Shown: one piece after another, positions 5,092-50,018 of the stretch | How the letters are laid out: each line of letters starts with the position of its first letter | Numbering within the stretch: position 1 is the first letter of the stretch | Virus record (IMG/VR): IMGVR_UViG_3300043410_000565 | Coordinates: 1 to 64,000 of that record | Length of the DNA: 64,000 nt | Reading direction: 5' to 3' (one strand) | From: a virus | The notes under the pieces: model-generated | Databases searched by the model: none | Seen by the model: only the letters and a program-made list of their open reading frames with translations | What the model was told of the DNA's origin: nothing | Translations under genes and position numbers: made by a program

Positions 5092-5112
5092 ACTCTAAAC
5101 AATGGAGGAACA

Positions 5113-14700: not shown

Positions 14701-14706
14701 AGTTTT

Positions 14707-14898: not shown

Positions 14899-14902
14899 TT
14901 AT

Positions 14903-14992: not shown

Positions 14993-14997
14993 GTTTT

Positions 14998-15093: not shown

Positions 15094-15117
15094 ATTTTAA
15101 ATGAAAGAGGTGATACT

Positions 15118-15687
15118 ATGCCAAGTGTATTTTTAGTAAGCGATACGCACTTTGGTCACGCTGGTGTATGTAAATTCACCGAAGCAGACGGAGTGACAAA
15201 AATCCGACCGTGGACTGATCCAGAAGAAATGGATGAAGCCATGGTCAAGATGTGGAACGAAACAGTCAAGCCGACTGATAAAGTTTACCACTTAGGTGAC
15301 GTTGTCATTAACCGCAAGGCATTAAAGATTATGCATCGGTTGAACGGTGACAAGGTTTTAATTAAGGGCAACCACGATATCTTTAGATTAGAGGAATATA
15401 CTCCATTCTTCAGAGACATTCGAGGGAGCCACGTGATGAACGGTATGATTTTAACTCATATCCCAGTTCATGAATCTAACTTGTATCGTTTCGGTACTAA
15501 CATCCACGGTCACACTCATACCAATCGCGTTATGATGACTGATCAATACGGTGTTACTCGAATCGACCCTCGTTACCAATGTGTCTGTGTTGAACAGACA
15601 GATTTTAGACCAATCTTATTTGAAGACGTAATTAAGCGTATCAAAGAAGAAGGTGGATCAGTCGGTTTCAAGAACGGTAACTATTAA
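15118..15687 (+). CDS. calcineurin-like metallophosphoesterase
   Basis: 189 residues. Metal motifs in order: SDTHFGH near the start, GDVV, GNHD, then THIPVH and HGHTH. A small phage phosphoesterase; substrate unknown, and tRNA or nucleotide phosphates are possible from its position inside the tRNA array. The start at 15118 has AGAGGTG upstream. It begins 26 nt after bracket element G, so this RNA lies in its leader. Confidence 0.85.
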   Translation: MPSVFLVSDTHFGHAGVCKFTEADGVTKIRPWTDPEEMDEAMVKMWNETVKPTDKVYHLGDVVINRKALKIMHRLNGDKVLIKGNHDIFRLEEYTPFFRDIRGSHVMNGMILTHIPVHESNLYRFGTNIHGHTHTNRVMMTDQYGVTRIDPRYQCVCVEQTDFRPILFEDVIKRIKEEGGSVGFKNGNY

Positions 15688-15688
15688 T

Positions 15689-15778
15689 GGAGAGTGGGCA
15701 GGACGGTAATGCAGCAGTTTGCTAAACTGTAGATCTCAGGAATGGGGTCAGTGGGTTCGATTCCCACACTCTCCGCCA
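15689..15778 (+). tRNA. tRNA-Ser(GCT)
   Basis: 90-nt class II tRNA, anticodon loop TTGCTAA, acceptor GGAGAGT/ACTCTCC, CCA encoded. Starts one base after the phosphoesterase stop. Confidence 0.92.
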
Positions 15779-15784
15779 ATTGTC

Positions 15785-15859
15785 GGGCTGATAGCTTAAT
15801 GGTAAAGCAGCCGACTCATAATCGGTTGAGTCTGAGTTCAATTCTCAGTCAGCCCACCA
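15785..15859 (+). tRNA. tRNA-Ile2 or tRNA-Met (CAT)
   Basis: Acceptor GGGCTGA/TCAGCCC perfect, anticodon loop CTCATAA on CCGA/TCGG, CCA encoded. One of three CAT tRNAs here; one could be the lysidine-modified Ile2 reading AUA. Confidence 0.88.
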
Positions 15860-15929
15860 AGTTGTGTTGCAACTAATCTGGGGTGCTTGCGTTCTCGCCC
15901 AGTTAAAATGCCAAATAATACGCAGCCAT
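15860..15929 (+). ncRNA. short hairpins between tRNAs
   Basis: AGTTG/CAACT and CTGGG/CCCAG hairpins in a 70-nt gap; no ORF or tRNA. Probably transcribed spacer. Confidence 0.3.
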
Positions 15930-16006
15930 GCGGATGTGACGGAATTGGTATACGTGCTAGACTCAAAATCTAGATTCTGCGAGTTCGAGTCTCGCCATCC
16001 GTACCA
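15930..16006 (+). tRNA. tRNA-Leu(CAA)
   Basis: Acceptor GCGGATG/CATCCGT, anticodon loop CTCAAAA on CTAGA/TCTAG, CCA encoded. The variable region is short for a Leu tRNA. Confidence 0.85.
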
Positions 16007-16012
16007 GATAAT

Positions 16013-16086
16013 GTAGGTGGAGCCAGATGGTCGGGCACTGGATTGCAAACCCATGGAAGCAGGTTCGATTCCTGTCACCTACTCCA
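16013..16086 (+). tRNA. tRNA-Cys(GCA)
   Basis: Acceptor GTAGGTG/CACCTAC, anticodon loop TTGCAAA, discriminator U as in bacterial tRNA-Cys, CCA encoded. Confidence 0.9.
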
Positions 16087-16116
16087 AAAATATTTGATAA
16101 AATAGTCAAAAATCGC

Positions 16117-16145
16117 TTTACTTTTATTCAGAGTTAAGGTATAAT
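16117..16145 (+). promoter_or_regulatory. internal promoter in the tRNA array
   Basis: TTTACT (16117-16122), 17 bp, TATAAT (16140-16145). The upstream TATTTGATAAA run repeats that before the 12342 promoter. Confidence 0.85.
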
Positions 16146-16165
16146 TAATGTAATGAGTTGATAAT

Positions 16166-16252
16166 GCGAGAATGGTGGAATGGTATACGCATCGGGCTTA
16201 AAACCCGACGTCTGTAATGGGCATGCGGGTTCGAGTCCCGCTTCTCGCACCA
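16166..16252 (+). tRNA. tRNA-Leu(TAA)
   Basis: 87-nt class II tRNA, anticodon loop CTTAAAA on CGGG/CCCG, acceptor GCGAGAA/TTCTCGC, CCA encoded. Confidence 0.93.
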
Positions 16253-16255
16253 AAT

Positions 16256-16331
16256 GTCCCGTTAGCTCAGTGGATAGAGCATCGGTCTTCTACACCGTGG
16301 GTCGGGAGTTCGAATCTCTCACGGGACGCCA
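16256..16331 (+). tRNA. tRNA-Arg(TCT)
   Basis: Acceptor GTCCCGT/ACGGGAC perfect, anticodon loop TTCTACA, discriminator G, CCA encoded. Reads the rare AGA codon. Confidence 0.92.
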
Positions 16332-16341
16332 AAAATAAAAC

Positions 16342-16370
16342 TTGACTTTTAATCAAGTTTGTAGTATAAT
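16342..16370 (+). promoter_or_regulatory. promoter of a structured RNA and tRNA-Glu
   Basis: TTGACT (16342-16347), 17 bp, TATAAT (16365-16370). The first product is a 130-nt structured region without ORF. Confidence 0.85.
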
Positions 16371-16376
16371 TAATGT

Positions 16377-16505
16377 TGTTAAGTTAGTTCTTAAAGACCT
16401 TTCTAAGTCACTACGTGGAGTCGGGTGCGTAAGGCAATTTTAGGGGAATCGCTGGAAGAGTGATTCGGTTAGAGTTGCGTTGGGATAGTTAGGGGCAGAC
16501 TCTAC
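16377..16505 (+). ncRNA. structured ncRNA with its own promoter
   Basis: GAGTC near 16417 pairs with GACTC near 16496; inside is a perfect GAATCGCT/AGTGATTC hairpin and TGC-GTAAG-GCA. No ORF with a start site. Ends just before tRNA-Glu. No known family recognised. Confidence 0.5.
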
Positions 16506-16510
16506 AATTT

Positions 16511-16586
16511 GCACGATTCGTCTATCGGTTTAGGACACCAGCCTTTCACGTTGGTAAGACGGGTTCGATTCCCGTATCGTGTACCA
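16511..16586 (+). tRNA. tRNA-Glu(TTC), second copy
   Basis: Acceptor GCACGAT/ATCGTGT, anticodon loop CTTTCAC on CCAGC/GTTGG, CCA encoded. Differs widely from the copy at 14006. Confidence 0.92.
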
Positions 16587-16686
16587 TATCAAAACGCATT
16601 GATGACAGTTAAACGGATAAGCAGGAATTTATTCCTCCGTGTTATACAGAAGGCTTTGTATGACGGTCAATGCGTTTTGATATGGT
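16583..16686 (+). ncRNA. long-stem spacer RNA overlapping the CCA of tRNA-Glu
   Basis: A perfect 20-bp inverted repeat, 16583-16602 with 16667-16686, whose first four bases are the ACCA end of tRNA-Glu. Two hairpins sit inside (AGGAA/TTCCT and ATACA/TGTAT). The tRNA end is paired until cut. Confidence 0.55.
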
Positions 16687-16925
16687 ATAGATTTTATACA
16701 CATGACACTTCAATGTCAGCAAGAGAAAGACACTAAATTCGAGTAGATGGCCATCGAAAGATTTAGTAGAGCACAGTCGGCGTGATTCCGTGCAAAACTA
16801 AGAATCTGTGGTTGAGTATCCCAAGTGACGTACCGAGTCCGTGCAGCTGCTTTAACGATGCGGTGAATGGTATCAATAACGATGGTGATACATTTGAGGT
16901 TGTCAGTTGTATAAAATTTAATGGA
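16687..16925 (+). ncRNA. structured untranslated region before the HNH gene
   Basis: No credible ORF over about 240 nt. Helices seen: ACTAAAT/ATTTAGT enclosing GATGGCCATC, and GCAC/GTGC enclosing CGG/CCG. Probably a leader RNA or further ncRNA; nothing recognised. Confidence 0.35.
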
Positions 16926-16966
16926 AGCGGATTAGAAATCTGCTTTTTACTAAATAAGTAAAAAGG
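16926..16966 (+). terminator. terminator/attenuator before the HNH gene
   Basis: AGCGGATT/AATCTGCT followed by TTTTT. The T-run can alternatively pair as TTTTTACT/AGTAAAAA just before the GGAG of the HNH gene, an attenuator-like arrangement. Confidence 0.55.
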
Positions 16967-16973
16967 AGATAAT

Positions 16974-17414
16974 ATGAAGCAACAGAAAAACAAATTTACG
17001 GATCAAGAAGTAATTGATGCGTATAATGAAGAAAAACATTTAGGTAAACTCGCAGTAAAATTCAAAGTTCCCCATATTCAAATGTGGAGAGTTTGTAAGA
17101 AACTAGGGTTGAGTTTTGGTAATGGTGGTGGAGCAAAAACTAAAATACCTCTTGAAGAGATTTTAGCAGGTGACCATCCTTATTATCAAACTCTAAAACT
17201 TAAAAGAAGATTGATCAAAGAAGGTATCTTAGAGAATAAATGTTCTTGTTGTGGTATAACTGAATGGCAAGGTAGAGAAATCGTGCAACAATTAGACCAT
17301 ATTAATGGAGATTCTTCTGATCATAGAAAAGATAATTTAAGATTACTATGTCCAAACTGTCATTCTCAGACTGACACTTGGTGTGGTAAACAAAATGGAT
17401 GCTTAGTCCCGTAA
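16974..17414 (+). CDS. HNH homing endonuclease
   Basis: 146 residues. N-terminal helix-turn-helix-like segment (LGKLAVKFKVPHIQMWRVCKKLG), then CSCCG...LDHINGDSSDHRKDNLRLLCPNCHSQ, the zinc-supported HNH nuclease motif. The last six codons run into tRNA-Tyr, so the ORF uses tRNA DNA for its C-terminus. A free-standing homing nuclease inserted in the tRNA array is the likely history. GGAG lies upstream of the ATG. Confidence 0.88.
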   Translation: MKQQKNKFTDQEVIDAYNEEKHLGKLAVKFKVPHIQMWRVCKKLGLSFGNGGGAKTKIPLEEILAGDHPYYQTLKLKRRLIKEGILENKCSCCGITEWQGREIVQQLDHINGDSSDHRKDNLRLLCPNCHSQTDTWCGKQNGCLVP

Positions 17415-17483
17415 TGGTATCGGGGGTAGACTGTAAATCTATTGGCTCAGCCCTTCTCTGTTCGAATCGGAGAGCATCCACCA
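17397..17483 (+). tRNA. tRNA-Tyr(GTA)
   Basis: 87-nt class II tRNA, loop CTGTAAA, acceptor GGATGCT/AGCATCC, CCA encoded. The first 18 nt are also HNH coding sequence. Confidence 0.92.
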
Positions 17484-17489
17484 AAATTT

Positions 17490-17564
17490 GGTCTCAAAGT
17501 GTTCATGGACGCACGCATGCCTGTCACGCATGAAGAAGGGGATCGTTACCCCTTGGGACCGCCA
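17490..17564 (+). tRNA. tRNA-Asp(GTC)
   Basis: Acceptor GGTCTCA/TGGGACC, anticodon loop CTGTCAC on CATGC/GCATG, discriminator G, CCA encoded. Confidence 0.9.
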
Positions 17565-17569
17565 AATTT

Positions 17570-17636
17570 AGGATCCTTACCGCAAAACTAAAACATTTCA
17601 CTTTATGGCTGTGAAAAGCAAAGCGGATCCTGTTGT
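17570..17636 (+). ncRNA. bracket element D (compact form)
   Basis: AGGATCC (17570-17576) with GGATCCT (17625-17631); CCGCAA follows the first strand, GTTGT the second. Interior hairpin TTTCAC/GTGAAA and A-rich linkers. Lies 17 nt before the next ATG, so also a leader structure. Confidence 0.65.
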
Positions 17637-17652
17637 TTAAAATGGAGAAATT

Positions 17653-18408
17653 ATGTTAGTTTATCTTGGTAAGCATAAGAATTGGTTTGGACCATATCAA
17701 CTTGCTGATGCCCTATGTTTCTGGGTCAAAGAAGTTGAAGATGAATATGGTATAAAAGCGAAACCACAATGGGTTCATCATTTCGGTGAATGGCTCGCTC
17801 ATGGTGACATTGAACCTGAACATAAGGTTGGTGAGGTTTACCGTTGGAATAAACAAGAACGACATAAGACTTTGCTCTATCGGTTCTTGCTTTGGATTGA
17901 TAAACTGAAGGACAAGTTTCCTCGAGAGATTATCAAGATTGATCGTTGGGATAGTTGGAACATTGATTCCACTCTGTCGCCAATTATCCTTCCTCTGTTG
18001 AAACAGTTGAAGGAAACAAAGCACGGTTCGGCTCAGGTTGATCTGGAAGATGTTCCAGAAGAGTTGCGTGCTGAAGGTCATAGCGATTTTAGTGATCAAA
18101 AAACATTTGACTTTTATCGTGAAAACAACGATAATATAGATTATGAAATGGTACACAAACGTTGGGACTGGGTTCTTAACGAAATGATCTTTGCCTTTGA
18201 TCACTTGGTTGATCGAACTTGGGAAGATAAGTATCATAGTGGTGAACATGACATTACTTGGACTAGACTCGAGAATGGATGTTCACAAATGGGACATGGA
18301 CCAAACGACACATACAAATGTGACTACGATGGTCTGAATGAAGAATGGAAAAGAGTAGATAATGGTCTTAGATTGTTTGGAAAGTATTTCCGAAATCTCT
18401 GGGACTAA
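17653..18408 (+). CDS. conserved phage protein of unknown function
   Basis: 251 residues, Trp/Asp/His-rich (GPYQLADALCFW, HHFGEWLAHG, KRWDWVLNEMIFAFDH). No motif that I can assign. Similar Trp-rich proteins of this length are seen in large myoviruses. GGAG lies 8 bases upstream of the ATG; bracket element D directly precedes it. Confidence 0.78.
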   Translation: MLVYLGKHKNWFGPYQLADALCFWVKEVEDEYGIKAKPQWVHHFGEWLAHGDIEPEHKVGEVYRWNKQERHKTLLYRFLLWIDKLKDKFPREIIKIDRWDSWNIDSTLSPIILPLLKQLKETKHGSAQVDLEDVPEELRAEGHSDFSDQKTFDFYRENNDNIDYEMVHKRWDWVLNEMIFAFDHLVDRTWEDKYHSGEHDITWTRLENGCSQMGHGPNDTYKCDYDGLNEEWKRVDNGLRLFGKYFRNLWD

Positions 18409-18417
18409 ATAGAAAAT

Positions 18418-18492
18418 GCCTCGTTAACTCAGCGGTAGAGTAACTCCCTTACAAGGAGAAGGTCGGCGGTTCAATCCCGTCACGAGGTACCA
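18418..18492 (+). tRNA. tRNA-Val(TAC)
   Basis: Acceptor GCCTCGT/ACGAGGT, anticodon loop CTTACAA on ACTCC/GGAGA, CCA encoded. Confidence 0.92.
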
Positions 18493-18499
18493 GAATTAT

Positions 18500-18575
18500 A
18501 GCGGGTTAGAGAAACGGCATCTCATCAGTCTCATAAGCTGAAGACACCTGGTTCGACTCCAGGACTCCGCTTCCA
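18500..18575 (+). tRNA. tRNA-Met(CAT)
   Basis: Anticodon loop CTCATAA on CAGT/GCTG, T-arm CCTGG/CCAGG, acceptor AGCGGG/CTCCGCT with an irregular inner end, CCA encoded. Initiator features are not clear. Confidence 0.8.
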
Positions 18576-18580
18576 AATTT

Positions 18581-18648
18581 AGAATCGGTTCAGCAAATAA
18601 AATGCATTCAACTTGTAATTGAAAAAAGCAAAAAAACGATTCTGTTGT
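18581..18648 (+). ncRNA. bracket element E (compact form)
   Basis: AGAATCG (18581-18587) with CGATTCT (18637-18643); CAGCAA inside, GTTGT after. Interior GCA/TGC and TTCAA/TTGAA hairpins and an A-rich strand. Precedes the next ATG by 16 nt. Confidence 0.65.
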
Positions 18649-18664
18649 ATTAAAGGAATAAATT

Positions 18665-18856
18665 ATGGATATGGATCAGGCAGCGGTATTTTTCGCTGGT
18701 TCAGTTTTGACAGCACTTGGATTTTTGATCTGGGTTGGCTTTGTACTTTTGGTTAATAACCTTGTACACAAATACTGGAAGAGTTGGGGTTGGTCATGGA
18801 ATGTTATTAACCCTCAACCTGTTCGATTCATGAATGAAGAAGAATTGAAGAAATAA
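18665..18856 (+). CDS. small membrane protein
   Basis: 63 residues with one long hydrophobic segment (about 8-33) and a Trp-rich tail. AAGGAA upstream of the ATG; a second ATG at 18671 is possible. Function unknown. Confidence 0.65.
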   Translation: MDMDQAAVFFAGSVLTALGFLIWVGFVLLVNNLVHKYWKSWGWSWNVINPQPVRFMNEEELKK

Positions 18857-18857
18857 T

Positions 18858-18934
<77 letters not shown>

Positions 18935-18960
18935 AAATTCGTACTATATAGAAGTACAAT

Positions 18961-19037
18961 GCGGATGTGATGGAATTGGTATACGTGTTGGTCTTAGAAG
19001 CCAAATTTTGTGAGTTCGAGTCTCACCATCCGCACCA
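18961..19037 (+). tRNA. tRNA-Leu(TAG)
   Basis: Acceptor GCGGATG/CATCCGC perfect, anticodon loop CTTAGAA, T-arm GTGAG/CTCAC, CCA encoded. Nearly identical 5' half to the Leu(CAA) gene at 15930, suggesting duplication. Confidence 0.9.
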
Positions 19038-19060
19038 ATTAATTTTATGGAGATTCATTA

Positions 19061-19300
19061 ATGCGTAGAGATAAACGACGTAAGTCTTTTGGTTTGACTG
19101 TTATCGTTGAAGATGGTAAATTTGAAAAAGCAATGCGCTTGTTCAAGAAGAAGGTTGACGACTCTGGATTGTTGAAAGAGGTTCGTGACCGTGAAGCCTA
19201 TGTTAAACCGACTATCCGTCGCAAACTTGCCAAGAATGCTGCTCGTAAGCGTTGGGCAAAGTATCTTGAATCACAAACATTGCCCACAAAGCAATATTAA
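19061..19300 (+). CDS. rpsU: ribosomal protein bS21
   Basis: 79 residues. The stretch FEKAMRLFKKKVDDSGLLKEVRDREAYVKPTIRRKLAKNAARKR follows bacterial bS21 closely (RRFKR...EKAGVL-EVRRREFYEKPT-RKRAK). bS21 helps mRNA Shine-Dalgarno recognition at the 30S subunit; phage copies may redirect ribosomes to phage mRNAs. Sits between tRNA-Leu and tRNA-Asn, consistent with a translation-takeover island. Confidence 0.9.
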   Translation: MRRDKRRKSFGLTVIVEDGKFEKAMRLFKKKVDDSGLLKEVRDREAYVKPTIRRKLAKNAARKRWAKYLESQTLPTKQY

Positions 19301-19309
19301 AAAGATTAT

Positions 19310-19384
19310 TCCAGAGTAGCACAGCGGTAGTGCAGTTGACTGTTAATCAATTGGTCGTAGGTTCGATCCCTGCCTCTGGAGCCA
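19310..19384 (+). tRNA. tRNA-Asn(GTT), second copy
   Basis: Acceptor TCCAGAG/CTCTGGA perfect, anticodon loop CTGTTAA on TTGA/TCAA, discriminator G and CCA encoded. Confidence 0.93.
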
Positions 19385-19397
19385 ATAAGGAGAGTAA

Positions 19398-20204
19398 ATG
19401 GCAGTAAAACAGGTTTGTCCTGATGTGGCATTCCCTTCATTTGATCATCTATTCAACCAGTTGAAAGGGTTGAAGTTGTCATTTGATCCAAACTGGCCAA
19501 GTTTACCAACGATGCCATCTCCGATGTTTCCGAACATTAAGATGCCTGAGTGGCAGACTACTAATCTAGCATTTAACATTTCTGTTAATCAAATGCTAAA
19601 GTGGTTTGAGATGATCTTTGCTAAACTGTCGTCATTCTTGGGTTCTGTATTTACTTTTCCAGATATTCCGCATATCAACCTGAAGTTACCAGACCTGTTT
19701 AATTTTAGCGGTGAGACTGATTGGGCTGCGATTTTCGCAAAGATTCCAAGTCTAAAATTACCGTCATTGCCAGATCCGTTGCTTCCAAATATGCATATGC
19801 CTGAGTTTGAGAGTTTAATTAAATTTCAGGCATTGATTTTAAATTACATGTCATCATTGATGGACTCGTTGATTGGGTTGTTACAATCAGTGATCAATAA
19901 ACTGAACATCAAACCTTTCTCATTAGGTTTGTCTATGCCTTCGTTTCCTGATCCATTGTTTCCTTTCGACTTTGAATCGTTAATGTTGAACATGCCTTCG
20001 CTACCGTCGTTGCCAGACCCATTGTTTGGTAACTTTAAAAACCCTTCAATGGAGTGGTTGGAAAGAGGTAAGAATTACTTCCTTCACTTACTTGGGTTGA
20101 TTGGTAAGACGATTGATGATTTTGTGGCATCTATTGCGAATTGGATTGGTGGTTGGACTCCACCATTGATTTGTTTTGGTGTACCTATAACAGTAGAAAC
20201 TTAA
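19398..20204 (+). CDS. repeat protein with PSxPDPLFP motifs
   Basis: 268 residues. Four related segments: PTMPSPMFPNIKMPEW, LPSLPDPLLPNMHMPEF, MPSFPDPLFPFDF and LPSLPDPLFGNF, spaced 60-80 residues apart and separated by amphipathic helices. C-terminal part ends in WTPPLICFGVP. Could be a structural or membrane-associated protein; no family assigned. AAGGAG upstream. Confidence 0.72.
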   Translation: MAVKQVCPDVAFPSFDHLFNQLKGLKLSFDPNWPSLPTMPSPMFPNIKMPEWQTTNLAFNISVNQMLKWFEMIFAKLSSFLGSVFTFPDIPHINLKLPDLFNFSGETDWAAIFAKIPSLKLPSLPDPLLPNMHMPEFESLIKFQALILNYMSSLMDSLIGLLQSVINKLNIKPFSLGLSMPSFPDPLFPFDFESLMLNMPSLPSLPDPLFGNFKNPSMEWLERGKNYFLHLLGLIGKTIDDFVASIANWIGGWTPPLICFGVPITVET

Positions 20205-20215
20205 TTGAGGATATT

Positions 20216-20485
20216 ATGACATTTGAACCATTAGGCAAACGTGTTTACATTGCTGAAGTAAAAACAGAAAAGAAGACAGCATCGGGTATTATCCTAGAAG
20301 GTGCTAACTCTATTCGTGAAACTAAGTTTGCCGAAGTTTTGGCTGTTGGTTATGACGTTAAGAAAGTTCGTGTTGGTCAACGTATCGTTTTGGATTGGTC
20401 GAAGTGTTTCCCAGTCAAGGTTGGTGACGTTGAACGTGCAGTGATTGATGAGGATCATATCCTCGGTACATACTGCGACGAATAA
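20216..20485 (+). CDS. GroES-like co-chaperonin (gp31 analogue)
   Basis: 89 residues: PLGKRVYIAEV, KTASGIIL, a mobile-loop-like stretch, AEVLAVGYD, VGQRIVLDW, DEDHILG. This follows the GroES beta-barrel and matches its ends, though shorter. T4 gp31 replaces GroES so that GroEL can fold the capsid protein; a like role is inferred. Start at 20216 has GAGGAT upstream; the longer frame from 20141 lies inside the previous gene. Confidence 0.82.
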   Translation: MTFEPLGKRVYIAEVKTEKKTASGIILEGANSIRETKFAEVLAVGYDVKKVRVGQRIVLDWSKCFPVKVGDVERAVIDEDHILGTYCDE

Positions 20486-20492
20486 AGGATTT

Positions 20493-20568
20493 GCCCTTTT
20501 AGCTCAGTTGGTAGAGCAGCACATTAGTAATGTGAAGGTCGCGTGTTCGAATCATGCAAGGGGCACCA
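20493..20568 (+). tRNA. tRNA-Thr(AGT)
   Basis: Acceptor GCCCTTT/AAGGGGC, anticodon loop TTAGTAA, D-arm GCTC/GAGC, CCA encoded. A34 form is uncommon in bacteria. Confidence 0.87.
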
Positions 20569-20573
20569 AAATT

Positions 20574-21113
20574 ATGAAGCTAATTGATTTCATTCAAACA
20601 TTTGATGGCGTTCTATCGCCAGAAACATGTAAGTTGATCATTGATCAATTTGAAGCAAATAAAGAAATAACAGAGAAACATGATACAGACTTGTATAAGT
20701 TTGATCAATTGAATCTCAATAAGACTGAAGGTTTATCAGAACTTGCTCAGGTTGTTGCGAATAATCTAGTCTCAGTCTATGATGATTATTTTAAATCGTT
20801 GCAGTTGAGTGAATATGTTAGCATTGAATCGTTTGAAGACATTCGTATCAAGAAGTATGCAAAAGGCTCTGGCGCTGAATTCAAAACTCACGTTGATGTA
20901 GCTGATAAAGCATCTGCTTCTAGGTTTTGTATTGCTATCATCTATCTTAATGATAATGATGGTCTTACTACTTTCCCGACACTTGGTGTTGGTGTAAAAC
21001 CTAAAGCTGGTCGTGTTGTAGTATTTCCTCCAACGTGGATGTTTCCACATAATGGATTACCGCCAACTGACAACGATAAGTACATTATGATGACATGTTT
21101 GCATTATAAGTAG
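20574..21113 (+). CDS. 2-oxoglutarate/Fe(II) oxygenase (prolyl hydroxylase-like)
   Basis: 179 residues. FKTHVDVAD gives the HxD, and a distal His in WMFPHNGLPP with Lys/Arg before it (KPKAGRVVVFPP) fits the P4Hc double-stranded beta-helix. Phage members may hydroxylate ribosomal proteins or other host proteins; target unknown. It ends in TAG, rare here; reading through it would add ten residues before TAA. Confidence 0.78.
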   Translation: MKLIDFIQTFDGVLSPETCKLIIDQFEANKEITEKHDTDLYKFDQLNLNKTEGLSELAQVVANNLVSVYDDYFKSLQLSEYVSIESFEDIRIKKYAKGSGAEFKTHVDVADKASASRFCIAIIYLNDNDGLTTFPTLGVGVKPKAGRVVVFPPTWMFPHNGLPPTDNDKYIMMTCLHYK

Positions 21114-21132
21114 GAGAAGGATATGGGTTCAG

Positions 21133-21348
21133 ATGGTAGCTAAAAATGATATCACTGGAGATGCAATCCAGTCTAAAGGAAATTCTAGGGCATATCAAGA
21201 GAATCTCGAAAAGATTTTCGGTGATAAGTCTGAAGAGAAAGAAAGAAAAGCCAGAGAAAAGGCTGAGTATTTTGCTCGGTTAAATGCCGAGTATGAGGAT
21301 AGAGTTACTCGTAACAACGAGGAAACTCAACAAGTAATGAGTCGCTAG
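21133..21348 (+). CDS. small charged helical protein
   Basis: 71 residues, Glu/Lys/Arg-rich coiled-coil-like. The ribosome-binding site is unclear (GGAGAAGG is 17-19 nt upstream, in front of a short frame starting at 21123). Ends in TAG and overlaps tRNA-Trp by 10 nt. Confidence 0.5.
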   Translation: MVAKNDITGDAIQSKGNSRAYQENLEKIFGDKSEEKERKAREKAEYFARLNAEYEDRVTRNNEETQQVMSR

Positions 21349-21415
21349 TTCCAATTGGCAGAACGATGGTCTCCAAAACCATATGTTGGGGGTTCGAATC
21401 CCTCGCGGCTCGCCA
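21339..21415 (+). tRNA. tRNA-Trp(CCA)
   Basis: Acceptor GAGTCGC/GCGGCTC, anticodon loop CTCCAAA on ATGGT/ACCAT, discriminator G, CCA encoded. The 5' strand overlaps the preceding ORF. Confidence 0.92.
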
Positions 21416-21422
21416 AACAAAT

Positions 21423-21498
21423 GCGGGTATAGCTCAGCTGGTAGAGCACAACGTTGCCAACGTCGAGGTCGAGGGTTCGAATCCCTTTGCCCGCTCCA
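21423..21498 (+). tRNA. tRNA-Gly(GCC)
   Basis: Acceptor GCGGGTA/TGCCCGC, anticodon loop TTGCCAA on ACG/CGT, discriminator U, CCA encoded. Confidence 0.92.
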
Positions 21499-21528
21499 AC
21501 TTTTTAATGAGGTAATAAAGGTGTAATC

Positions 21529-22011
21529 ATGAAAAAACTAAACATTGACGAAGTAAAAGCGTTCATTCAGGCACAAAGTCCAGAGACAAAGATCTACATC
21601 GGGGGTGATTCTGAACGATTCCTAATCGGCAATGATTGGTATGCGGATTACACACTTGCCGTTGTTGTTCATATTGACGGTAAACATGGTGCTAAGGTAT
21701 TCGGTGAAGTTCAAAGAGAACGTGACTGGGACCAAAAGAAAAACAGACCACGTATGCGTCTAATGAACGAAGTTTACAAAATCGCAGAATTGTACCAAAA
21801 GCTGCACGACGTATTAGAAGACAGAGATGTTCAAATTCACTTGGACATTAACCCTGATGAAAAGTACGGTTCAAGCTGCGTGGTGCAAGAAGCTGTGGGT
21901 TATATCCGTGGTATGTGTAACGTGATCCCAATGGTTAAGCCAAAGGCATTCGCTGCATCTTACTGCGCTGATAGATTGAAACATATCATGAGCCATCAGA
22001 AGGCTGCGTGA
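21529..22011 (+). CDS. YkuK/DUF458-type RNase H-like protein
   Basis: 160 residues. IYIGGDSE near the start, VVVHIDG, MNEVYKIAELYQKL and IHLDINPDEKYGSS fit the DUF458 family, a predicted RNase H-fold nuclease. Acidic residues D27, D103 and D108 region could form the active site. Cellular role of the family is not established. Confidence 0.75.
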   Translation: MKKLNIDEVKAFIQAQSPETKIYIGGDSERFLIGNDWYADYTLAVVVHIDGKHGAKVFGEVQRERDWDQKKNRPRMRLMNEVYKIAELYQKLHDVLEDRDVQIHLDINPDEKYGSSCVVQEAVGYIRGMCNVIPMVKPKAFAASYCADRLKHIMSHQKAA

Positions 22012-22028
22012 TTGACTATATAATATAT

Positions 22029-22104
22029 GCTTCTATGGCAGAGTGGCTTATGCGACCGTCTCTAAAACGGGTGAAGGTGGGTTCAAATCCCACTAGGAGC
22101 ACCA
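22029..22104 (+). tRNA. tRNA-Sup(CTA), amber suppressor
   Basis: Exactly 76 nt with every arm in register: acceptor GCTTCTA/TAGGAGC, D-arm, anticodon stem ACCGT/ACGGG, loop CTCTAAA with U33 and anticodon C34-U35-A36, T-arm GTGGG/CCCAC, A73, CCA. This anticodon reads UAG. The amino acid it carries cannot be deduced. Confidence 0.82.
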
Positions 22105-22119
22105 AACTTTTGAAAGGAT

Positions 22120-22197
22120 ATGCAATGGAGAAATTCTCAGCATAGATTCGACCACCGTAAGGTTCTTTTGTTTTATATTATGTCTATCAAATTTTAA
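22120..22197 (+). CDS. possible 25-residue ORF
   Basis: MQWRNSQHRFDH... with GAAAGGA just upstream. An alternative ATG at 22125 gives six codons ending in TAG. Weak; may be only leader RNA. Confidence 0.25.
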   Translation: MQWRNSQHRFDHRKVLLFYIMSIKF

Positions 22198-22211
22198 CAA
22201 AGGAATCTATT

Positions 22212-22589
22212 ATGTGTATCGAACTAAAAATTAAATCTAAACATCTTGCTCTTGAGCCTTCTATTATTCGTTGTGAAGAAAGAAAACTCAAGAAGCGTAT
22301 GAAACATAACCGTGATGGCGAAACATCGTATTGGGAACTTGCTAGACAGCGAGATAACCTAATCCTTCATCGTCGTTGGAATGTGAGAAATGAATCTCGT
22401 GCCACTGAGTTGGCTCGTGCATATCTCGCTGGAAAACCTTATTCTCACGTTGAAAAGAAGCGTAAGGATGAGACAATGTTTCAGATGATGATCGTTCCTC
22501 GTATTGTTGCGATGGTTACCAAATATGGGACCAAAGAACAACGATCCGTTGATCGAAAAATTATTCAAGAATGGTCAAAAATCGCTTGA
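22212..22589 (+). CDS. basic hypothetical protein
   Basis: 125 residues, highly charged (RCEERKLKKRMKHNRDGE), helical. AAAGGAA upstream. No family recognised; may bind RNA. Confidence 0.65.
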   Translation: MCIELKIKSKHLALEPSIIRCEERKLKKRMKHNRDGETSYWELARQRDNLILHRRWNVRNESRATELARAYLAGKPYSHVEKKRKDETMFQMMIVPRIVAMVTKYGTKEQRSVDRKIIQEWSKIA

Positions 22590-22614
22590 CTTTAATTCAG
22601 GAATAAGGTATAAT
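22586..22614 (+). promoter_or_regulatory. promoter of a large structured RNA
   Basis: TTGACT (22586-22591), 17 bp beginning TTAATTC, TATAAT (22609-22614). The -35 box overlaps the previous stop codon. ATG at 22621 opens only a 13-residue frame. Confidence 0.9.
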
Positions 22615-22620
22615 TAATGT

Positions 22621-22900
22621 ATGAATTGGGATGAATACAGCATAGTAAACTACTATGACTAAAGAGTAGCCCACGCACAGGAGGAAACATCGTAAGGTGT
22701 CAATTTTGTGGGCTAGGTTGGAAAGACTATTGCATGCTCTTATGCCTCGTGAACCCTAGTAGGATTCAGATAGTTACACCCGAATGTGTACCAAGTTGCC
22801 GTAACTTGTACGGATATGCCAGTGAACTGGATGATTCTCGTGGGGTTTGCCGAAAGGGACACGATGGTTTAAGTAACTAAAATGATCAACCCGATCATCC
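22621..22900 (+). ncRNA. about 280-nt structured ncRNA, own promoter, upstream of the Ro-like gene
   Basis: Helices in order: CATAGTA/TACTATG, TAGCCCAC/GTGGGCTA enclosing a GTAA-capped hairpin, ACTAT/ATAGT enclosing GAACCCTA/TAGGATTC, TACAC/GTGTA, CAAGTT/AACTTG, CCAG-TGAA-CTGG, CGTG/CACG, GATC/GATC. No useful ORF. A separate promoter follows, so this is a stand-alone RNA unit. Not recognisable as RNase P, 6S or a group I intron. Confidence 0.62.
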
Positions 22901-22917
22901 CGTTGTTTAAATTTTAC

Positions 22918-22946
22918 TTGACTTTAATTCAGAAGTCAGGTATAAT
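22918..22946 (+). promoter_or_regulatory. promoter of the Ro-like gene
   Basis: TTGACT (22918-22923), 17 bp beginning TTAATTC, TATAAT (22941-22946). Confidence 0.9.
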
Positions 22947-22960
22947 TGATGTATTGAGTA

Positions 22961-23116
22961 AGGTTAGGTTCAGCAAACCTAAAACTAGGTGGCAAATCTC
23001 CTCGGAGACTGCTACCACTACGCTGGCACGTGGATCTTTGATCCACCCGAAAGGGTTTGTGCGCCAAGAGTTTCGATTTCTCTTGTAAATCAAAAAGTAG
23101 GAAACTAACCTGTTGT
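22961..23116 (+). ncRNA. bracket element H, leader of the Ro-like gene
   Basis: AGGTTAG (22961-22967) pairs with CTAACCT (23105-23111); CAGCAA inside, GTTGT after. Starts about 8 nt into the transcript. Inside: GGTGGCA/TGCTACC enclosing TCTCC/GGAGA; TGGCAC/GTG..CCA enclosing GTGGATC/GATCCAC and CCC-GAAA-GGG; then a hairpin AAGAG/CTCTT with a TTCGATT loop like a T-loop. A tRNA-like but not tRNA structure placed before the Ro-like ORF. Confidence 0.62.
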
Positions 23117-23155
23117 TTGACTTAGGCTTCGTTGCCTGTAATTGGAGATGTAAAT

Positions 23156-24592
23156 ATGAATACTTTTGTTTCAGCCGTTCAAAATCAAGAAGCACGCACT
23201 ACTAACGGCATGCGTGCCCGTAAGTCTACTGCCAATGCGTGCGTAGACCTTTTCTTCAAAATCGGAGCTTCACGTGGTAAAGACATTACCAAGGAATTCG
23301 TTGCAGCTTATGTTGAGAACCGTGAGATCGCTCTGCGTATCGCACAATGGGTTCGTGACGTTCGTGGTGGCGCAGGTGAACGTGAAATCTTCCGTCAAAT
23401 CCTAAAGTACCTAGACAAGCACCACCCAACTGATGCAGCTTTGCTGTTGATGAAAGTACCAGAAATTGGTCGTTGGGATGACATCTTTGTTGTAGAAAAC
23501 AAAGAGAACAAGTATAAGGCATTCGCCATGCTTGGTGACGCACTACGTGCTAAGAACGGCTTGGCTGCTAAGTGGACTCCTCGTAAGGGTGACTTGGCTG
23601 TTGAGATCCGTCAATTCTTCGGCATGTCGCCAAAGTTTTATCGTAAGTCCTTGGTTGAATTGACTAAGGTTGTTGAAACTGACATGTGTGCAAAGAACTG
23701 GGACTCGATTAACTTCAGCCATGTTCCATCTCTGGCTCACTCTCGTTACAAGAAGGCATTCTTCCGTAACACTCAAGAGTATGCCAAGTATGTTGCTGAA
23801 CTGACTAAGGATCCTAAGGATCGTACAGTTCAAGTCAAAATCAATGCAGGTGCGGTTTATCCATACGATGTGTTGAAGGGTGTTATCGGTTCTTACAACA
23901 AGAACTATAACGCAACTGAACTAGGTGCATTGCAAGCCCAATGGGATGCTATGGAAAACTTTGTTGGTGATGCTAACGTATTGCCACTGGTTGACGTATC
24001 AGGCTCAATGTCTTGCCGTGCTGGTGGCGCGAAGTCTACTTCTGCCACTACTTGTATGGATGTTGCAGTTTCTCTTGGTCTGTATATCGCAGACAAGAAC
24101 AAGGGTAAGTTCAAGGATACATTCCTAACTTTCTCTTCTTCTCCAGAGTTGCTGCACCTGAAGGGTAACATCGTTCAGAAGTGCCAACAAATGGTGCGTT
24201 CTAACTGGGGTATGTCTACTGACTTGGTTCGTGCCATGGATAAGATCCTGAGCGTTGCTAAGCAAGGTGGTGTACCACAAGAAGAAATGCCAGAAATGTT
24301 GTTGATCATGTCTGACATGCAATTCAACCAATGCGCTCGTTTCGACGACTCCGCAATGCAAATGATGGCACGTAAGTTTGAAGCAGCAGGATACGAACTG
24401 CCAAAGATCGTGTTCTGGAACCTAAACGCTGCGGACAATGTCCCAGTGAAGTACGATGCTTCGAACGTGGCATTGATCTCTGGTTTCAGTCCACAGATCA
24501 TGGTATCTGTTCTGGGTGGTGATACTGAAAAGTTCACCCCAGAAGCTATCATGATGAAAGCAATCGGTGTAGACCGATATGCTCTAGCCTAA
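23156..24592 (+). CDS. TROVE/Ro60-like RNA-binding protein with vWA domain
   Basis: 478 residues. The N-terminal two thirds are helical (ALRIAQWVRDVRGGAGEREIFRQIL, LLMKVPEIGRWDD) as in TROVE/DUF2828 HEAT-like rings; the C-terminus has LVDVSGSMS (MIDAS DxSxS) and LLIMSDMQF of a vWA domain. Bacterial Ro60 (Rsr) binds Y RNAs and misfolded RNAs and works with nucleases and RNA-repair proteins. Structured RNAs lie directly before and after this gene, as with bacterial rsr-Y RNA loci. GGAGAT precedes the ATG at 23156; a TTG at 23132 is less likely. Confidence 0.8.
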   Translation: MNTFVSAVQNQEARTTNGMRARKSTANACVDLFFKIGASRGKDITKEFVAAYVENREIALRIAQWVRDVRGGAGEREIFRQILKYLDKHHPTDAALLLMKVPEIGRWDDIFVVENKENKYKAFAMLGDALRAKNGLAAKWTPRKGDLAVEIRQFFGMSPKFYRKSLVELTKVVETDMCAKNWDSINFSHVPSLAHSRYKKAFFRNTQEYAKYVAELTKDPKDRTVQVKINAGAVYPYDVLKGVIGSYNKNYNATELGALQAQWDAMENFVGDANVLPLVDVSGSMSCRAGGAKSTSATTCMDVAVSLGLYIADKNKGKFKDTFLTFSSSPELLHLKGNIVQKCQQMVRSNWGMSTDLVRAMDKILSVAKQGGVPQEEMPEMLLIMSDMQFNQCARFDDSAMQMMARKFEAAGYELPKIVFWNLNAADNVPVKYDASNVALISGFSPQIMVSVLGGDTEKFTPEAIMMKAIGVDRYALA

Positions 24593-24805
24593 TACCCTAG
24601 TCGCTTGGGGACGGGAAGCGTTGACTGGTGCGCTTAATCACCAGTCACCATAATGAAGTATATTCAACACGGAGTAAGGGTTCTGCAGAACAACTGCTTT
24701 GTGTGCCGCATGGTGACCAGCACCCAAGGTCGAAAAGTAGGGTATCCGTCTAGTATGTGCACAGGAAAAACGGAAACGCACGAATGTATTTCATTATGGT
24801 ATTAT
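24593..24805 (+). ncRNA. candidate Y RNA-like ncRNA after the Ro-like gene
   Basis: A perfect 8-bp hairpin GACTGGTG/CACCAGTC (24623-24646), then an 18-bp helix with wobbles, 24648-24665 with 24782-24799, enclosing about 115 nt that hold GTTCTGCAGAAC and GGTG..CACC folds. TACCCTA (24593) can pair with TAGGGTA (24738). A long terminal stem with a complex internal module next to a Ro gene is what Y RNAs look like. Sequence identity to known Y RNAs cannot be checked here. Confidence 0.5.
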
Positions 24806-24882
24806 GCGGGATTGGTGTTCAATGGTTAGCATGTGAGTCTTCCAAACTTGAGGTACGAGTTCGAATCTCGTATCCCGCTCCA
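24806..24882 (+). tRNA. tRNA-Gly(TCC)
   Basis: Acceptor GCGGGAT/ATCCCGC perfect, anticodon loop CTTCCAA, T-arm ACGAG/CTCGT, discriminator U, CCA encoded. Last tRNA of the island. Confidence 0.92.
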
Positions 24883-45616: not shown

Positions 45617-46378
45617 ATGGCGACAAAGACCAGAGCAAAACTTCTAGATAATGATTTAAGTGACAAACCAAAAGAGGTTAAAGTAAATAACTCTTTGAAA
45701 ATTAGGATCGATGATTTAAAAACTTTTGATCCATTAACTGCGCATCAAAAAGACTTTTATGACGCTTACAAGCGACAAGATTATTTTATTGCATTACACG
45801 GTGTAGCAGGTACAGGTAAAACTTTCATCGCTTTGTATAAAGCATTGGAAGAAGTATTAGATAAAAGCAATCCGTTCAATAAGATTATTATCGTTCGTTC
45901 GGCAGTACCATCTCGTGAAGTTGGTCACCTTCCTGGGGATTTAAATGAAAAAACAGAAATCTACAGACAACCTTACCAGCAAATCTGTACCACTCTCTTT
46001 GGAAGACCTGATGCCTACCAACGGTTGGAAGAGCAACACCACATTGAATTTATTTCTACATCGTTCATCCGTGGGATGTCCTTCGACGATGCTATCATCA
46101 TCGTTGACGAAATGCAAAACCTAACATACGAAGAAATCGACACAGTTATGACTCGTGTTGGTTATCGTTCTAAAATTATCTGGTGTGGTGATTATCGCCA
46201 AACCGACTTGAATAAGAAAAAGAATGACATGTCTGGTATTCTTAAGTTCTTTGAAATTGCTCAACACATGAGAGCTTTCACTAGAATTGAGTTCACACCT
46301 GATGACATTGTTCGTTCATCACTAGTGAAAGATTATATCCTCGCCAAACTACGATATGAGGATTATGTAGAGAAATAA
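45617..46378 (+). CDS. phoH: PhoH-like ATPase
   Basis: 253 residues. Walker A LHGVAGTGKTFIAL, VRSAVPSREVGHLPGDLNEK, Walker B IIVDEMQNL and KIIWCGDYRQTD are typical of PhoH. Common in marine and freshwater myoviruses; linked to phosphate stress or RNA metabolism but not proved. Stop overlaps the next ATG. Confidence 0.93.
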   Translation: MATKTRAKLLDNDLSDKPKEVKVNNSLKIRIDDLKTFDPLTAHQKDFYDAYKRQDYFIALHGVAGTGKTFIALYKALEEVLDKSNPFNKIIIVRSAVPSREVGHLPGDLNEKTEIYRQPYQQICTTLFGRPDAYQRLEEQHHIEFISTSFIRGMSFDDAIIIVDEMQNLTYEEIDTVMTRVGYRSKIIWCGDYRQTDLNKKKNDMSGILKFFEIAQHMRAFTRIEFTPDDIVRSSLVKDYILAKLRYEDYVEK

Positions 46379-47031
46379 TGAAAACATTTATACATCATGA
46401 TTTTGCGAAGTTAGAAAGGGATACAGCTGCTGACGGTCGTCGAGTTTATAAGACGCCAGAAGGTAAGCTGTATCCTTCAGTCACTTCTATCACAGGTGTT
46501 AATAGCACCTTCAACAAGAGTGCGTGGATTCAGCGTGTTGGCGTTGACGAAGCCAACCGTATTACTCAGCGAGCACTTGACCGTGGCACTCGCATCCATT
46601 CTCTCTGTGAAAACTTCTTACTTGGTAATGAAGTAAAGATTGATATGTTTGATCAAGACATGTGGAGCACTATGCTACCTTTGTTGAACAAGATCGACAA
46701 TATTCATTGCCTTGAAACTCCACTGTATTCTGACTTTCTACAAGCAGCTGGTACAGTTGACTGTATTGCGGAGTATGAAGGTAAGTTATCCGTCATCGAC
46801 TTTAAGACTTCATCTAGGGTTAAAGAGCGTGATGATATTCACAACTACTTCGAGCAGACTGCAGCTTATGCCGTTATGTTTGAAGAACGAACAGGTATTC
46901 CAATCGGTCGTTTAATTATCTTGATGGTGATTGACGATGATGCACCAAGAGTGTTTATTGAGAAACGTGATGGTTGGATTGCAGGATTCCGTAAGTCACG
47001 TATGGATTATCGTCAAAAGTATAATATATAG
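46378..47031 (+). CDS. PD-(D/E)XK exonuclease (RecB/MGME1-like)
   Basis: 217 residues. RGTRIHSLCENFL, AGTVDCIAEYEGKLSVIDFKTSSR and NYFEQTAAYAVMFEERTG fit the RecB-type nuclease fold (H, D, DxK, QxxxY). Probably processes ssDNA ends. Ends in TAG, 4 nt before the tmRNA acceptor piece. Confidence 0.88.
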   Translation: MKTFIHHDFAKLERDTAADGRRVYKTPEGKLYPSVTSITGVNSTFNKSAWIQRVGVDEANRITQRALDRGTRIHSLCENFLLGNEVKIDMFDQDMWSTMLPLLNKIDNIHCLETPLYSDFLQAAGTVDCIAEYEGKLSVIDFKTSSRVKERDDIHNYFEQTAAYAVMFEERTGIPIGRLIILMVIDDDAPRVFIEKRDGWIAGFRKSRMDYRQKYNI

Positions 47032-47035
47032 AATA

Positions 47036-47348
47036 TTGCTGTAATCCCTTCAAAGCGAAGGACTTCTGGACGGGGGTTCGACTCCCCCCATCTCCACCAA
47101 AAGAGAATTGACACGGTGTACAACGTGCATCACTGAGTAATCAAATGGTTCAGACGTAGAGCTGAAATTCAGTTTTCTTTTGATGGGGATGCCATGGTTT
47201 CGACAGGGGTAGATAGTAGCGACGGCAGCACGACAGGAGTAGTCGTTAAAAGCAAATCAAAGTAAATGCAAACGATGAAGTTTTCGCATTGGCAGCCTAA
47301 ACGCTGACTAGGGTTTCGATGGGTTTCCTCGTAACAGAATAACCCATC
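47036..47348 (+). ncRNA. ssrA: circularly permuted (two-piece) tmRNA gene
   Basis: The acceptor piece comes first: T-arm GGGGG-TTCGACT-CCCCC (47072-47088), acceptor strand CATCTCC (47089-47095), A and CCA (47097-47099). After an 85-nt insert the coding piece starts GGGGATG (47185-47191). It continues through TTTCGACAGGGG and the tag reading frame GCA AAC GAT GAA GTT TTC GCA TTG GCA GCC TAA (47268-47300), and ends in a GATGGGTT/AACCCATC hairpin (47318-47348). The acceptor stem has G3-U70, the alanine mark. The P2 helix forms between GCTGTAAT/CCCTT (47038-47050) and AGGGG/ATAGTAGC (47204-47220). CAAAAGA/TCTTTTG brings the two ends together. Tag ANDEVFALAA. Confidence 0.93.
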
Positions 47349-47932: not shown

Positions 47933-48211
47933 ATGTCAAATATGACACCGTTCGAAATTCGTCTCGAACTATTAAAAATGGCGAAAGATATGCTTGTTGA
48001 AGAATACCACGGTAAGAAAGAACAAGTATCACAAGATTGGCACGTTAGAGTTGAAAATGCTCGACACGCTGGTTCTGTTCCACCAGAACATCCTGCTATG
48101 CCATCTTATCCGACTGAAGCTGATGTTGTCGCAAAGGCAACTCAATTAAACGGCTTCGTCTCACAAATCCCACAAGCTACATTAGAAAAGGCAAGCAAAA
48201 AGTCCACCTGA
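47933..48211 (+). CDS. conserved T4-type hypothetical protein
   Basis: 92 residues, MTPFEIRLELLKMAKDMLVEEYHGKKEQ, a start common in T4-type phages. AAGGAG upstream. Function unknown; possibly late. Confidence 0.72.
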   Translation: MSNMTPFEIRLELLKMAKDMLVEEYHGKKEQVSQDWHVRVENARHAGSVPPEHPAMPSYPTEADVVAKATQLNGFVSQIPQATLEKASKKST

Positions 48212-48263: not shown

Positions 48264-48782
48264 ATGCGTAAAGCAAAATTAATACTACTTGGTTCATTCA
48301 TTGCAATCTGCTCCATCATTGGGTTAGGTTCTACGATTGAACAAAACAAAATAATGGAGATTGCTTATAGCGATCTAACAAAAGATGCCAAAAAGCAAGT
48401 AGACTGCTTGGCTGAAAATATCTACCACGAAGCTGGTTATGAATCTGAAACGGGTAAACAAGCTGTTGCTCTGGTTACTCTAAACAGAACCCAAGATGAA
48501 CGTTTTCCTTCGCAAATTTGCGAGGTAGTAAAACAAAAGACACAAGGTACATGTCAGTTCAGCTGGTTCTGTATGCCTGTTAAATTAAACAGGAACACTG
48601 ATGCGTATAAACAGTCACTAGAAGTTGCGCTGTTTGTATATGCTAACTATGAGAAGTTAAAAGATGTCACACATGGTGCTCTTTACTATCATGCCGACTA
48701 CGTCAACCCTCGTTGGCGCAATGTTGAAAAGACAACCGTTATTGGTCGTCACATTTTTTATAAGGAAAAACTGAAATTATGA
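48264..48782 (+). CDS. SleB-type cell-wall hydrolase, candidate signal-anchored endolysin
   Basis: 172 residues. Hydrophobic N-terminus (about 6-24) then CLAENIYHEAGYESETGKQAVALVTLNR and CQFSWFC, the SleB/CwlJ (Hydrolase_2) domain; Glu in YHEA is the expected catalytic residue. The N-terminal segment could act as a signal-anchor-release export signal, which fits an endolysin. AAGGAG upstream; overlaps ClpP-like gene. Confidence 0.85.
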   Translation: MRKAKLILLGSFIAICSIIGLGSTIEQNKIMEIAYSDLTKDAKKQVDCLAENIYHEAGYESETGKQAVALVTLNRTQDERFPSQICEVVKQKTQGTCQFSWFCMPVKLNRNTDAYKQSLEVALFVYANYEKLKDVTHGALYYHADYVNPRWRNVEKTTVIGRHIFYKEKLKL

Positions 48783-49339
48783 TGAATAAATTAAATCTAC
48801 AATTAACTGATGGTGGTGATTCGAAGCATTCGTTTTTCCTCATGATGGAAGAAGTTAGCCTCCCGACTGTTAAGTCTGCAGTTGAATGGATTCTTGAAGC
48901 TAACTTTACCGAAGAACGACCAGAGATGCTTAACCTCATCATCACTTCTCCAGGAGGTGACTTGAATGCAGCGTTTGCATTGATTGACGTTATGCGTGGA
49001 TCAGCTATTCCAGTTCGTACCATTGGGCTTGGACAAATCGCTTCTGCTGGTCTAATGATTTTCATTGCTGGTGAAAAGGGACAACGTATCTTGACGCCAA
49101 ATACTTCAATTCTATCTCACCAATATTCATGGGGTGCTATTGGTAAAGAGCATGAATTGTTTGCTCAAATTAAAGAGTTTGACCTCACTACTAAAAAGGT
49201 TATTGACCACTACAAGAAATGTACTGGTCTTGCGGATAAGAAGATTCGCGAAGTTCTATTACCACCACAAGACGTTTGGTTATCCCCAGTTGAAGCCAAA
49301 AAACTTGGTTTGTGTGACGATGTTAAGGATCTAAAATGA
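48779..49339 (+). CDS. ClpP-like serine protease
   Basis: 186 residues. LIITSPGGDLNAAFALIDVM, GQIASAGLMIF (nucleophile Ser) and TSILSHQYS (His) follow ClpP. Phage copies may degrade host proteins or replace capsid proteases; here it lies in an early/middle region beside gp59 and gp32, not among head genes. ATGATG start overlaps the lysin stop. Confidence 0.88.
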   Translation: MMNKLNLQLTDGGDSKHSFFLMMEEVSLPTVKSAVEWILEANFTEERPEMLNLIITSPGGDLNAAFALIDVMRGSAIPVRTIGLGQIASAGLMIFIAGEKGQRILTPNTSILSHQYSWGAIGKEHELFAQIKEFDLTTKKVIDHYKKCTGLADKKIREVLLPPQDVWLSPVEAKKLGLCDDVKDLK

Positions 49340-49584: not shown

Positions 49585-49803
49585 ATGAAAACAAAAAGTG
49601 AACTTCTAACGGAACGCGAAACCCTTTATATTGAGAAGATGAAACTTGATAGATTCTTCTCTTTATTTTTGGATAAGTTTGGAGACTCGATGGATCCCAA
49701 GTCTCCAAACACAAAGGTTTGGACATTATACAAAACCAAACTTAACGACTATGAAAAGGTTTCGCAGTCTATTAAACGATTAGATTATTGGATTTCAAAA
49801 TAA
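49585..49803 (+). CDS. small charged protein, probable leaderless mRNA
   Basis: 72 residues, MKTKSELLTERETLY..., helical. ATG is 6 nt after the -10 box. The upstream in-frame ATG at 49567 lies before the promoter -10 and is rejected. TAATG coupling to the gp33-like gene. Confidence 0.68.
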   Translation: MKTKSELLTERETLYIEKMKLDRFFSLFLDKFGDSMDPKSPNTKVWTLYKTKLNDYEKVSQSIKRLDYWISK

Positions 49804-50018
49804 TGTTTAAAACCTCAAATGAATTCTCGTTGTTTATTGAACAACAAGCAAAAGCAAACCGTATGACTCATATGGATGCAGTTCTGGAATATTGTAGAGT
49901 GAACTTTCTAGAACCTGAAGATGTTGCTAAGTTAATCAACAAATCACTCAAAGACAAAATTGAAATGGATTTTCGGGATGTTAATATGCTCCCGAAGCAA
50001 GCACAGTTAGATATTTAA
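49803..50018 (+). CDS. 33: gp33-like late transcription coactivator
   Basis: 71 residues. MTHMDAVLEYCRVNFLEPEDVAKLINKSLKDKIEMDFRDVNMLPK follows the helical pattern of T4-type gp33, which bridges RNA polymerase and the gp55/gp45 late complex. It lies next to gp59 and gp32, the usual place (33-59-32). Confidence 0.78.
   Translation: MFKTSNEFSLFIEQQAKANRMTHMDAVLEYCRVNFLEPEDVAKLINKSLKDKIEMDFRDVNMLPKQAQLDI

Follow-up and report, generated by a model that had tools for sequence, protein, structure and literature searches.

A predicted circularly permuted tmRNA of betaproteobacterial type at a conserved locus of a T4-like phage

Genes for tmRNA were found in 2.3% of phage genomes in one survey, in which 53 of 133 unique structures were two-piece (PMC9004378). 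One of the described carriers is the Methylophilales (OM43) myophage Melnitz (EXVC044M, MZ577097; PMC9004378), a T4-like phage whose permuted two-piece tmRNA lies in a locus with PhoH, a PD-(D/E)XK nuclease, a late-transcription coactivator, a gp59 loader and an SSB, and is followed on its 3' side by a glutamine riboswitch. The two-piece tmRNA of C. crescentus is known to work (PMC3985003), and nearly all bacteria have SmpB (PMC4131195). Two further connections between tmRNA and mobile elements have been described, namely the use of ssrA as an attachment site by phages and islands (PMC9004378, PMC11915505) and the decoy role proposed for a tRNA-like domain in phage DS6A that lacks a tag (PMC4131195, PMC11915505).

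The DNA analysed here, called the window, is a stretch of 64,000 nucleotides (positions 1 to 64,000 of IMG/VR record IMGVR_UViG_3300043410_000565) from a 160,850-bp T4-like phage, in which ARAGORN calls a circularly permuted tmRNA gene (tmRNA*) at 47037-47348 on the plus strand. The Rfam covariance search matches this gene to the beta_tmRNA model RF01850 with 161.3 bits (cut-off 84, E=6.5e-50) and to the tmRNA_permuted model RF04321 with 145.6 bits (cut-off 47, E=1e-28), values which rule out a chance match, and in the whole phage it is the single RF04321 match. The permuted, phage-encoded tmRNA with the tag ANDEVFALAA that the initial annotation had proposed is thereby borne out, including the covariance comparison that it had named as a check. 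The acceptor half with the T-arm stands 5' of the coding half with a spacer between them, and the distance of 85 nt claimed earlier is exact, the acceptor piece ending in the letters CTCCACCA at 47099 and the coding piece beginning with GGGGATG at 47185 (Table 1). Sequence inspection likewise located each of the other elements listed in the initial annotation: the G3-U70 pair of alanine identity within the acceptor stem GGGGAUG/CAUCUCC, the TTTCGAC motif 3' of the 5' acceptor strand, complementary P2 strands, and a ten-residue tag frame (GCA AAC GAT GAA GTT TTC GCA TTG GCA GCC TAA) with its resume codon, hydrophobic C-terminus and stop. Behind the tag, the strands GATGGGTT (47318-47325) and AACCCATC (47341-47348) form an 8-bp closing stem, which is the counterpart of the post-tag stem in the beta_tmRNA model. 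Taken at the level of sequence, the gene is a genuine, complete and conserved phage-borne tmRNA of a known kind, phages with such genes having already been described.

Table 1. Features of the tmRNA gene and of the genes discussed with it (phage coordinates)
Feature	Positions	Strand	Basis
PhoH-like ATPase, upstream part of conserved locus	45617..46378	+	phrog_170 8.7e-82; PF02562 157.9 bits
PD-(D/E)XK exonuclease, directly upstream of tmRNA	46378..47031	+	phrog_298 2.4e-63
3' (acceptor) piece: P2 3' strand, T-arm, acceptor 3' strand, encoded CCA	47037..47099	+	RF04321/RF01850 alignments; stem covariation
Intervening sequence, 85 nt, predicted to be removed in maturation	47100..47184	+	between encoded CCA and GGGG 5' end
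Spacer-closing stem, 5' strand AAAGAGAATTGA	47100..47111	+	12-bp fold with 47169-47180
Spacer-closing stem, 3' strand TCAGTTTTCTTT, then TGAT 47181-47184	47169..47180	+	fold; phage spacer comparison
5' (coding) piece, probable 3' end	47185..47348	+	RF01850 match to 47366; terminal 8-bp stem
Tag frame: resume codon GCA, peptide ANDEVFALAA, stop TAA	47268..47300	+	ARAGORN and sequence
ClpP-like protease, 1.4 kb downstream of tmRNA; possible functional partner	48779..49339	+	PF00574 98.7 bits
Late-transcription coactivator	49788..50018	+	PF16805 62.7 bits
gp21-type prohead protease, separate from ClpP	108370-108825		PF03420

The gene is surrounded by T4-like genes, which include a gp59-type helicase loader, a gp32-type SSB, the late-transcription coactivator, PhoH and the PD-(D/E)XK exonuclease, and these neighbours confirm that it is phage-borne. 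The exonuclease adjoins the tmRNA also in Melnitz and in many viral contigs, the coactivator is found downstream of the tmRNA in Melnitz as well, and the order PhoH, nuclease, tmRNA, coactivator, gp59 is that of the Melnitz locus. The two tmRNAs themselves differ, that of Melnitz being alpha-type (RF01849 scores best, with 106.7 bits) and the present one beta-type (161 bits), with a mutual identity of 52%; moreover, the Rfam search of the present tmRNA gave no riboswitch match at the gathering threshold, and a ClpP gene lies in its vicinity. The usual order in relatives is a transcription-regulator-like gene (phrog_385), PhoH, exonuclease, tmRNA, orf92, cell-wall hydrolase, ClpP, gp59 and gp32. 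The orf92 gene (47933-48211, plus strand) encodes a 92-aa protein that is 47-86% conserved beside the tmRNA in many related contigs, with no Pfam or PHROG match and none in the named phage collection. No sigma-70 promoter was recognised on the plus strand upstream of the tmRNA. ARAGORN also finds 30 tRNA genes at 12792-24882 on the plus strand and none in the remainder from 64 to 160.8 kb, an array that covers most amino acids and is large for a phage of such size. One of these tRNAs (22029-22104, plus strand, anticodon CTA, labelled Pyl by ARAGORN) is an apparent amber suppressor; the standard code seems otherwise to be used, with TAG ending 8 of 153 long ORFs, the exonuclease adjoining the tmRNA among them.

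Conservation was followed through IMG/VR, where a scan by a pattern of the acceptor end gathered at least 120 stretches that were then passed to ARAGORN. Among the IMG/VR matches listed, most ARAGORN tmRNA calls are permuted and many of the phage tmRNAs adjoin a PD-(D/E)XK nuclease gene. The initial annotation had called tmRNAs on phages uncommon, which the permuted majority in this sample and the 2.3% of the published survey (PMC9004378) show to be an overstatement. Where loci were picked solely by a relative of the exonuclease, a permuted tmRNA often follows at a downstream distance of no more than about 2.5 kb, and at these loci the covariance search recovered three extra tmRNAs that ARAGORN had missed. 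In a set of 18 close relatives from phages, pairing in the acceptor, T and proximal P2 helices reaches 100%, as against 81-90% for shuffled partners, even though 8 of the 18 base pairs that make up these helices are altered on both sides. Compensatory change backs the acceptor, T and P2 stems among 69 phage homologues too, and G3-U70 is invariant in 69 of 69 phage sequences and in the present gene; helices held by compensatory change together with an identity pair that is never altered argue for a working RNA. In the acceptor piece, a hairpin CCTTC/GAAGG can form throughout the close phage clade, where it is nearly invariant and shows one compensatory pair; this element is weakly supported and not general.

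The spacer, which RF04321 and RF01850 treat as an unpaired insert, has ends that fold to a 12-bp stem, with UGAU left directly before the mature 5' end, and the stem places, in the modelled fold, both mature ends side by side. TGAT terminates 38 of 57 distinct phage spacers. When pairing was scored as Watson-Crick matches at ten fixed positions in these 57 spacers, the ends paired at 7.40 of 10 positions with their own partners and at 4.19 of 10 after swapping between phages, a value that 0 of 2000 permutations reached, with the qualification that the spacers are non-independent, many of the phages being related, while the swapping preserves shared composition. The ends of bacterial spacers pair as well. 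Bacterial spacers are shorter, with a median of 30 nt (range 24-42), as compared with phage medians of 73-80 nt. No description of the spacer-closing stem was found in the literature consulted, and an earlier description may exist elsewhere.

As for the kinship of the gene, RF01850 is its best-scoring clan model, and a tree of 110 permuted tmRNAs from phages and bacteria joins its phage clade to bacterial permuted tmRNAs, taken from the order sampled around Thauera, with support of 0.90-0.93 at the enclosing nodes and some low values at internal ones. By this model and this grouping the tmRNA is of the betaproteobacterial subtype. It shares with the bacterial tmRNAs of RF01850 (e.g. that of Thauera, tag ANDERFALAA) the gene order, the acceptor and P2 helices, the T-arm, the post-tag closing stem and the tag type ANDExFALAA, and differs from the sampled betaproteobacterial genes in being phage-borne rather than chromosomal, in its longer spacer and in an identity of at most 71.6%. 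The betaproteobacterial kinship read earlier from the tag thus holds as to type; the hint at a host that had been drawn from it does not, since the nearest sequences are those of phages (87.6% at best) and the tag ANDEVFALAA occurs in 0 of 399 genomes of the Thauera-sampled order, 16 of which have a permuted beta tmRNA above the cut-off. Assignment of a host by name was dropped, the bacterial identity peaking at 71.6%. The nearest relatives are IMG/VR contigs of uncultivated T4-like phages (e.g. L151, L062, L072 and L130) of the same clade, several of them with the tmRNA at the nuclease locus, which differ in spacer length and sequence and in their tags (ANDESYALAA, ANDSVFALAA and ANDEVYALAA).

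Two types of phage tmRNA, A, to which the present gene belongs, and B, occupy the same locus and are scattered over the exonuclease tree, on which the type changes 9 times compared with a mean of 9.7 after shuffling. The tmRNA at this locus would thus appear to have been exchanged repeatedly, which is the simplest reading of the sequences, and recombination of the exonuclease would look alike. The closest relative by exonuclease (L127, 89% identity) has no tmRNA in the 5 kb covered. In that part of L127 (1004-1700), a radical-SAM-like gene directly follows the exonuclease, in the place of the tmRNA. The tmRNA would accordingly be dispensable in some phages, and the position after the exonuclease would be a site of gene turnover.

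The explanation that fits best, and which is considered very likely, is that the gene encodes a functional two-piece tmRNA of betaproteobacterial type that uses the SmpB, alanyl-tRNA synthetase and proteases of the host during infection. It draws on the presence of all recognition elements, the compensated helices, the degron-type ALAA tag and the stem-closed spacer, and also on the recurrence of the locus, both in Melnitz and in viral contigs in number, and on a phage that has 30 tRNAs and no integrase match. In the mechanism proposed, a single transcript would be made and cut by host RNase P at 47185 and by a 3' tRNA-processing enzyme at 47099, following which the two pieces would be held together through base pairing; for the two predicted cuts the spacer-closing stem offers indirect support. 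The RNA would then be charged by the host alanyl-tRNA synthetase via G3-U70, and host SmpB would bring it, in the infected cell, to ribosomes that have stalled on broken mRNA, so that unfinished proteins bearing ANDEVFALAA would pass to ClpXP or proteases like it. Dependence on the SmpB of the host would follow from the phage itself, in which a search for SmpB found none. This dependence counts against the explanation, as do the negative promoter search on the plus strand and the tmRNA-free locus of L127. The gain for the phage may be that translation capacity and amino acids stay available while host RNA is degraded, and such a role in sparing translation fits with the 30 tRNA genes.

A variant that is compatible with this explanation, and that is judged unlikely as it stands, is that proteins of the host or the phage, once tagged by the tmRNA, go to a protease which contains the ClpP of the phage. 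The protein encoded near the tmRNA scores above the Pfam CLP_protease cut-off, and its Ser/His/Asp triad is apparently kept, as judged by eye from GQIASAG, ILSHQ and PQDVWLS, which we take to be the triad motifs by comparison with known ClpP. Its relatives in other permuted-tmRNA phage contigs are mostly 71-85% identical, named relatives reaching at most 53.7%. The recurrence of ClpP behind tmRNA, orf92 and the hydrolase in relatives would suit such a partnership, as would the ALAA terminus of the tag and the separate prohead protease, which makes head maturation an unlikely role for ClpP. Against it stand a search of the phage for the ClpX zinc finger that gave no match, and the counts themselves: among deduplicated complete intervals, ClpP occurs in 5 of the 13 that have a tmRNA and in 2 of the 22 that have none (Fisher p=0.075), an association that kinship confounds and that is not significant and suggestive only. 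The Kyanoviridae-assigned Synechococcus phage BUCT-ZZ01 (ON615601) also combines a permuted tmRNA, whose tag reads ANDETFSMALAA, with a relative of ClpP (53.7%), but its tmRNA is located inside a tRNA array, about 41 kb from PhoH and ClpP, unlike the present locus. In the record of that phage (L314, ON615601.1), both the permuted tmRNA (4749-5167) and the surrounding tRNA array are unannotated. A wider proposal, in which tmRNA and the adjoining ClpP would form a viral tagging-degradation module, the slot would be a swappable, host-matching cassette and the long spacer stem would control maturation, is likewise put forward as an improbable one.

It is very unlikely that the gene is a captured host gene without function, left by imprecise excision or random transfer and retained by chance, for which the absence of a tmRNA at the L127 locus and the known use of ssrA as an attachment site could be adduced. 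The gene is complete rather than a fragment, compensatory changes in many phages preserve its helices, its spacer stem covaries, and the same locus recurs in Melnitz and numerous contigs. An attachment-site relic in particular is rejected on these features of a complete, conserved gene together with the search of the phage for a tyrosine integrase, which gave no match. Blocking of host trans-translation by a phage RNA that merely occupies host SmpB or stalled ribosomes is hardly to be expected either and is less likely than trans-translation itself, because, even though no SmpB was found in the phage and, in E. coli, tmRNA is inhibited by an RNA of the DS6A kind that consists of a tRNA-like domain only (PMC4131195, PMC11915505), the coding half with its resume codon, ten-residue ALAA tag and stop is intact here and in relatives and would be needless for a decoy.

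With the functional two-piece tmRNA as the preferred reading, the gene adds a clear betaproteobacterial-type example to the few two-piece tmRNAs published for phages, and the slot beside PhoH and the nuclease emerges as a conserved T4-like locus at which the tmRNA lineage seems to be repeatedly replaced. The details that are new are the alpha/beta contrast with Melnitz, the apparent switching of lineages, the covarying spacer stem with UGAU, the longer spacers of phages, and the ClpP gene 1.4 kb downstream. The covarying stem offers a testable hypothesis for the maturation of permuted pre-tmRNA, and the nearby ClpP offers one for what a phage may gain from tagging. Should the slot indeed be a swappable cassette, tmRNA lineages would be exchanged to suit the SmpB, synthetase or processing enzymes of the host.
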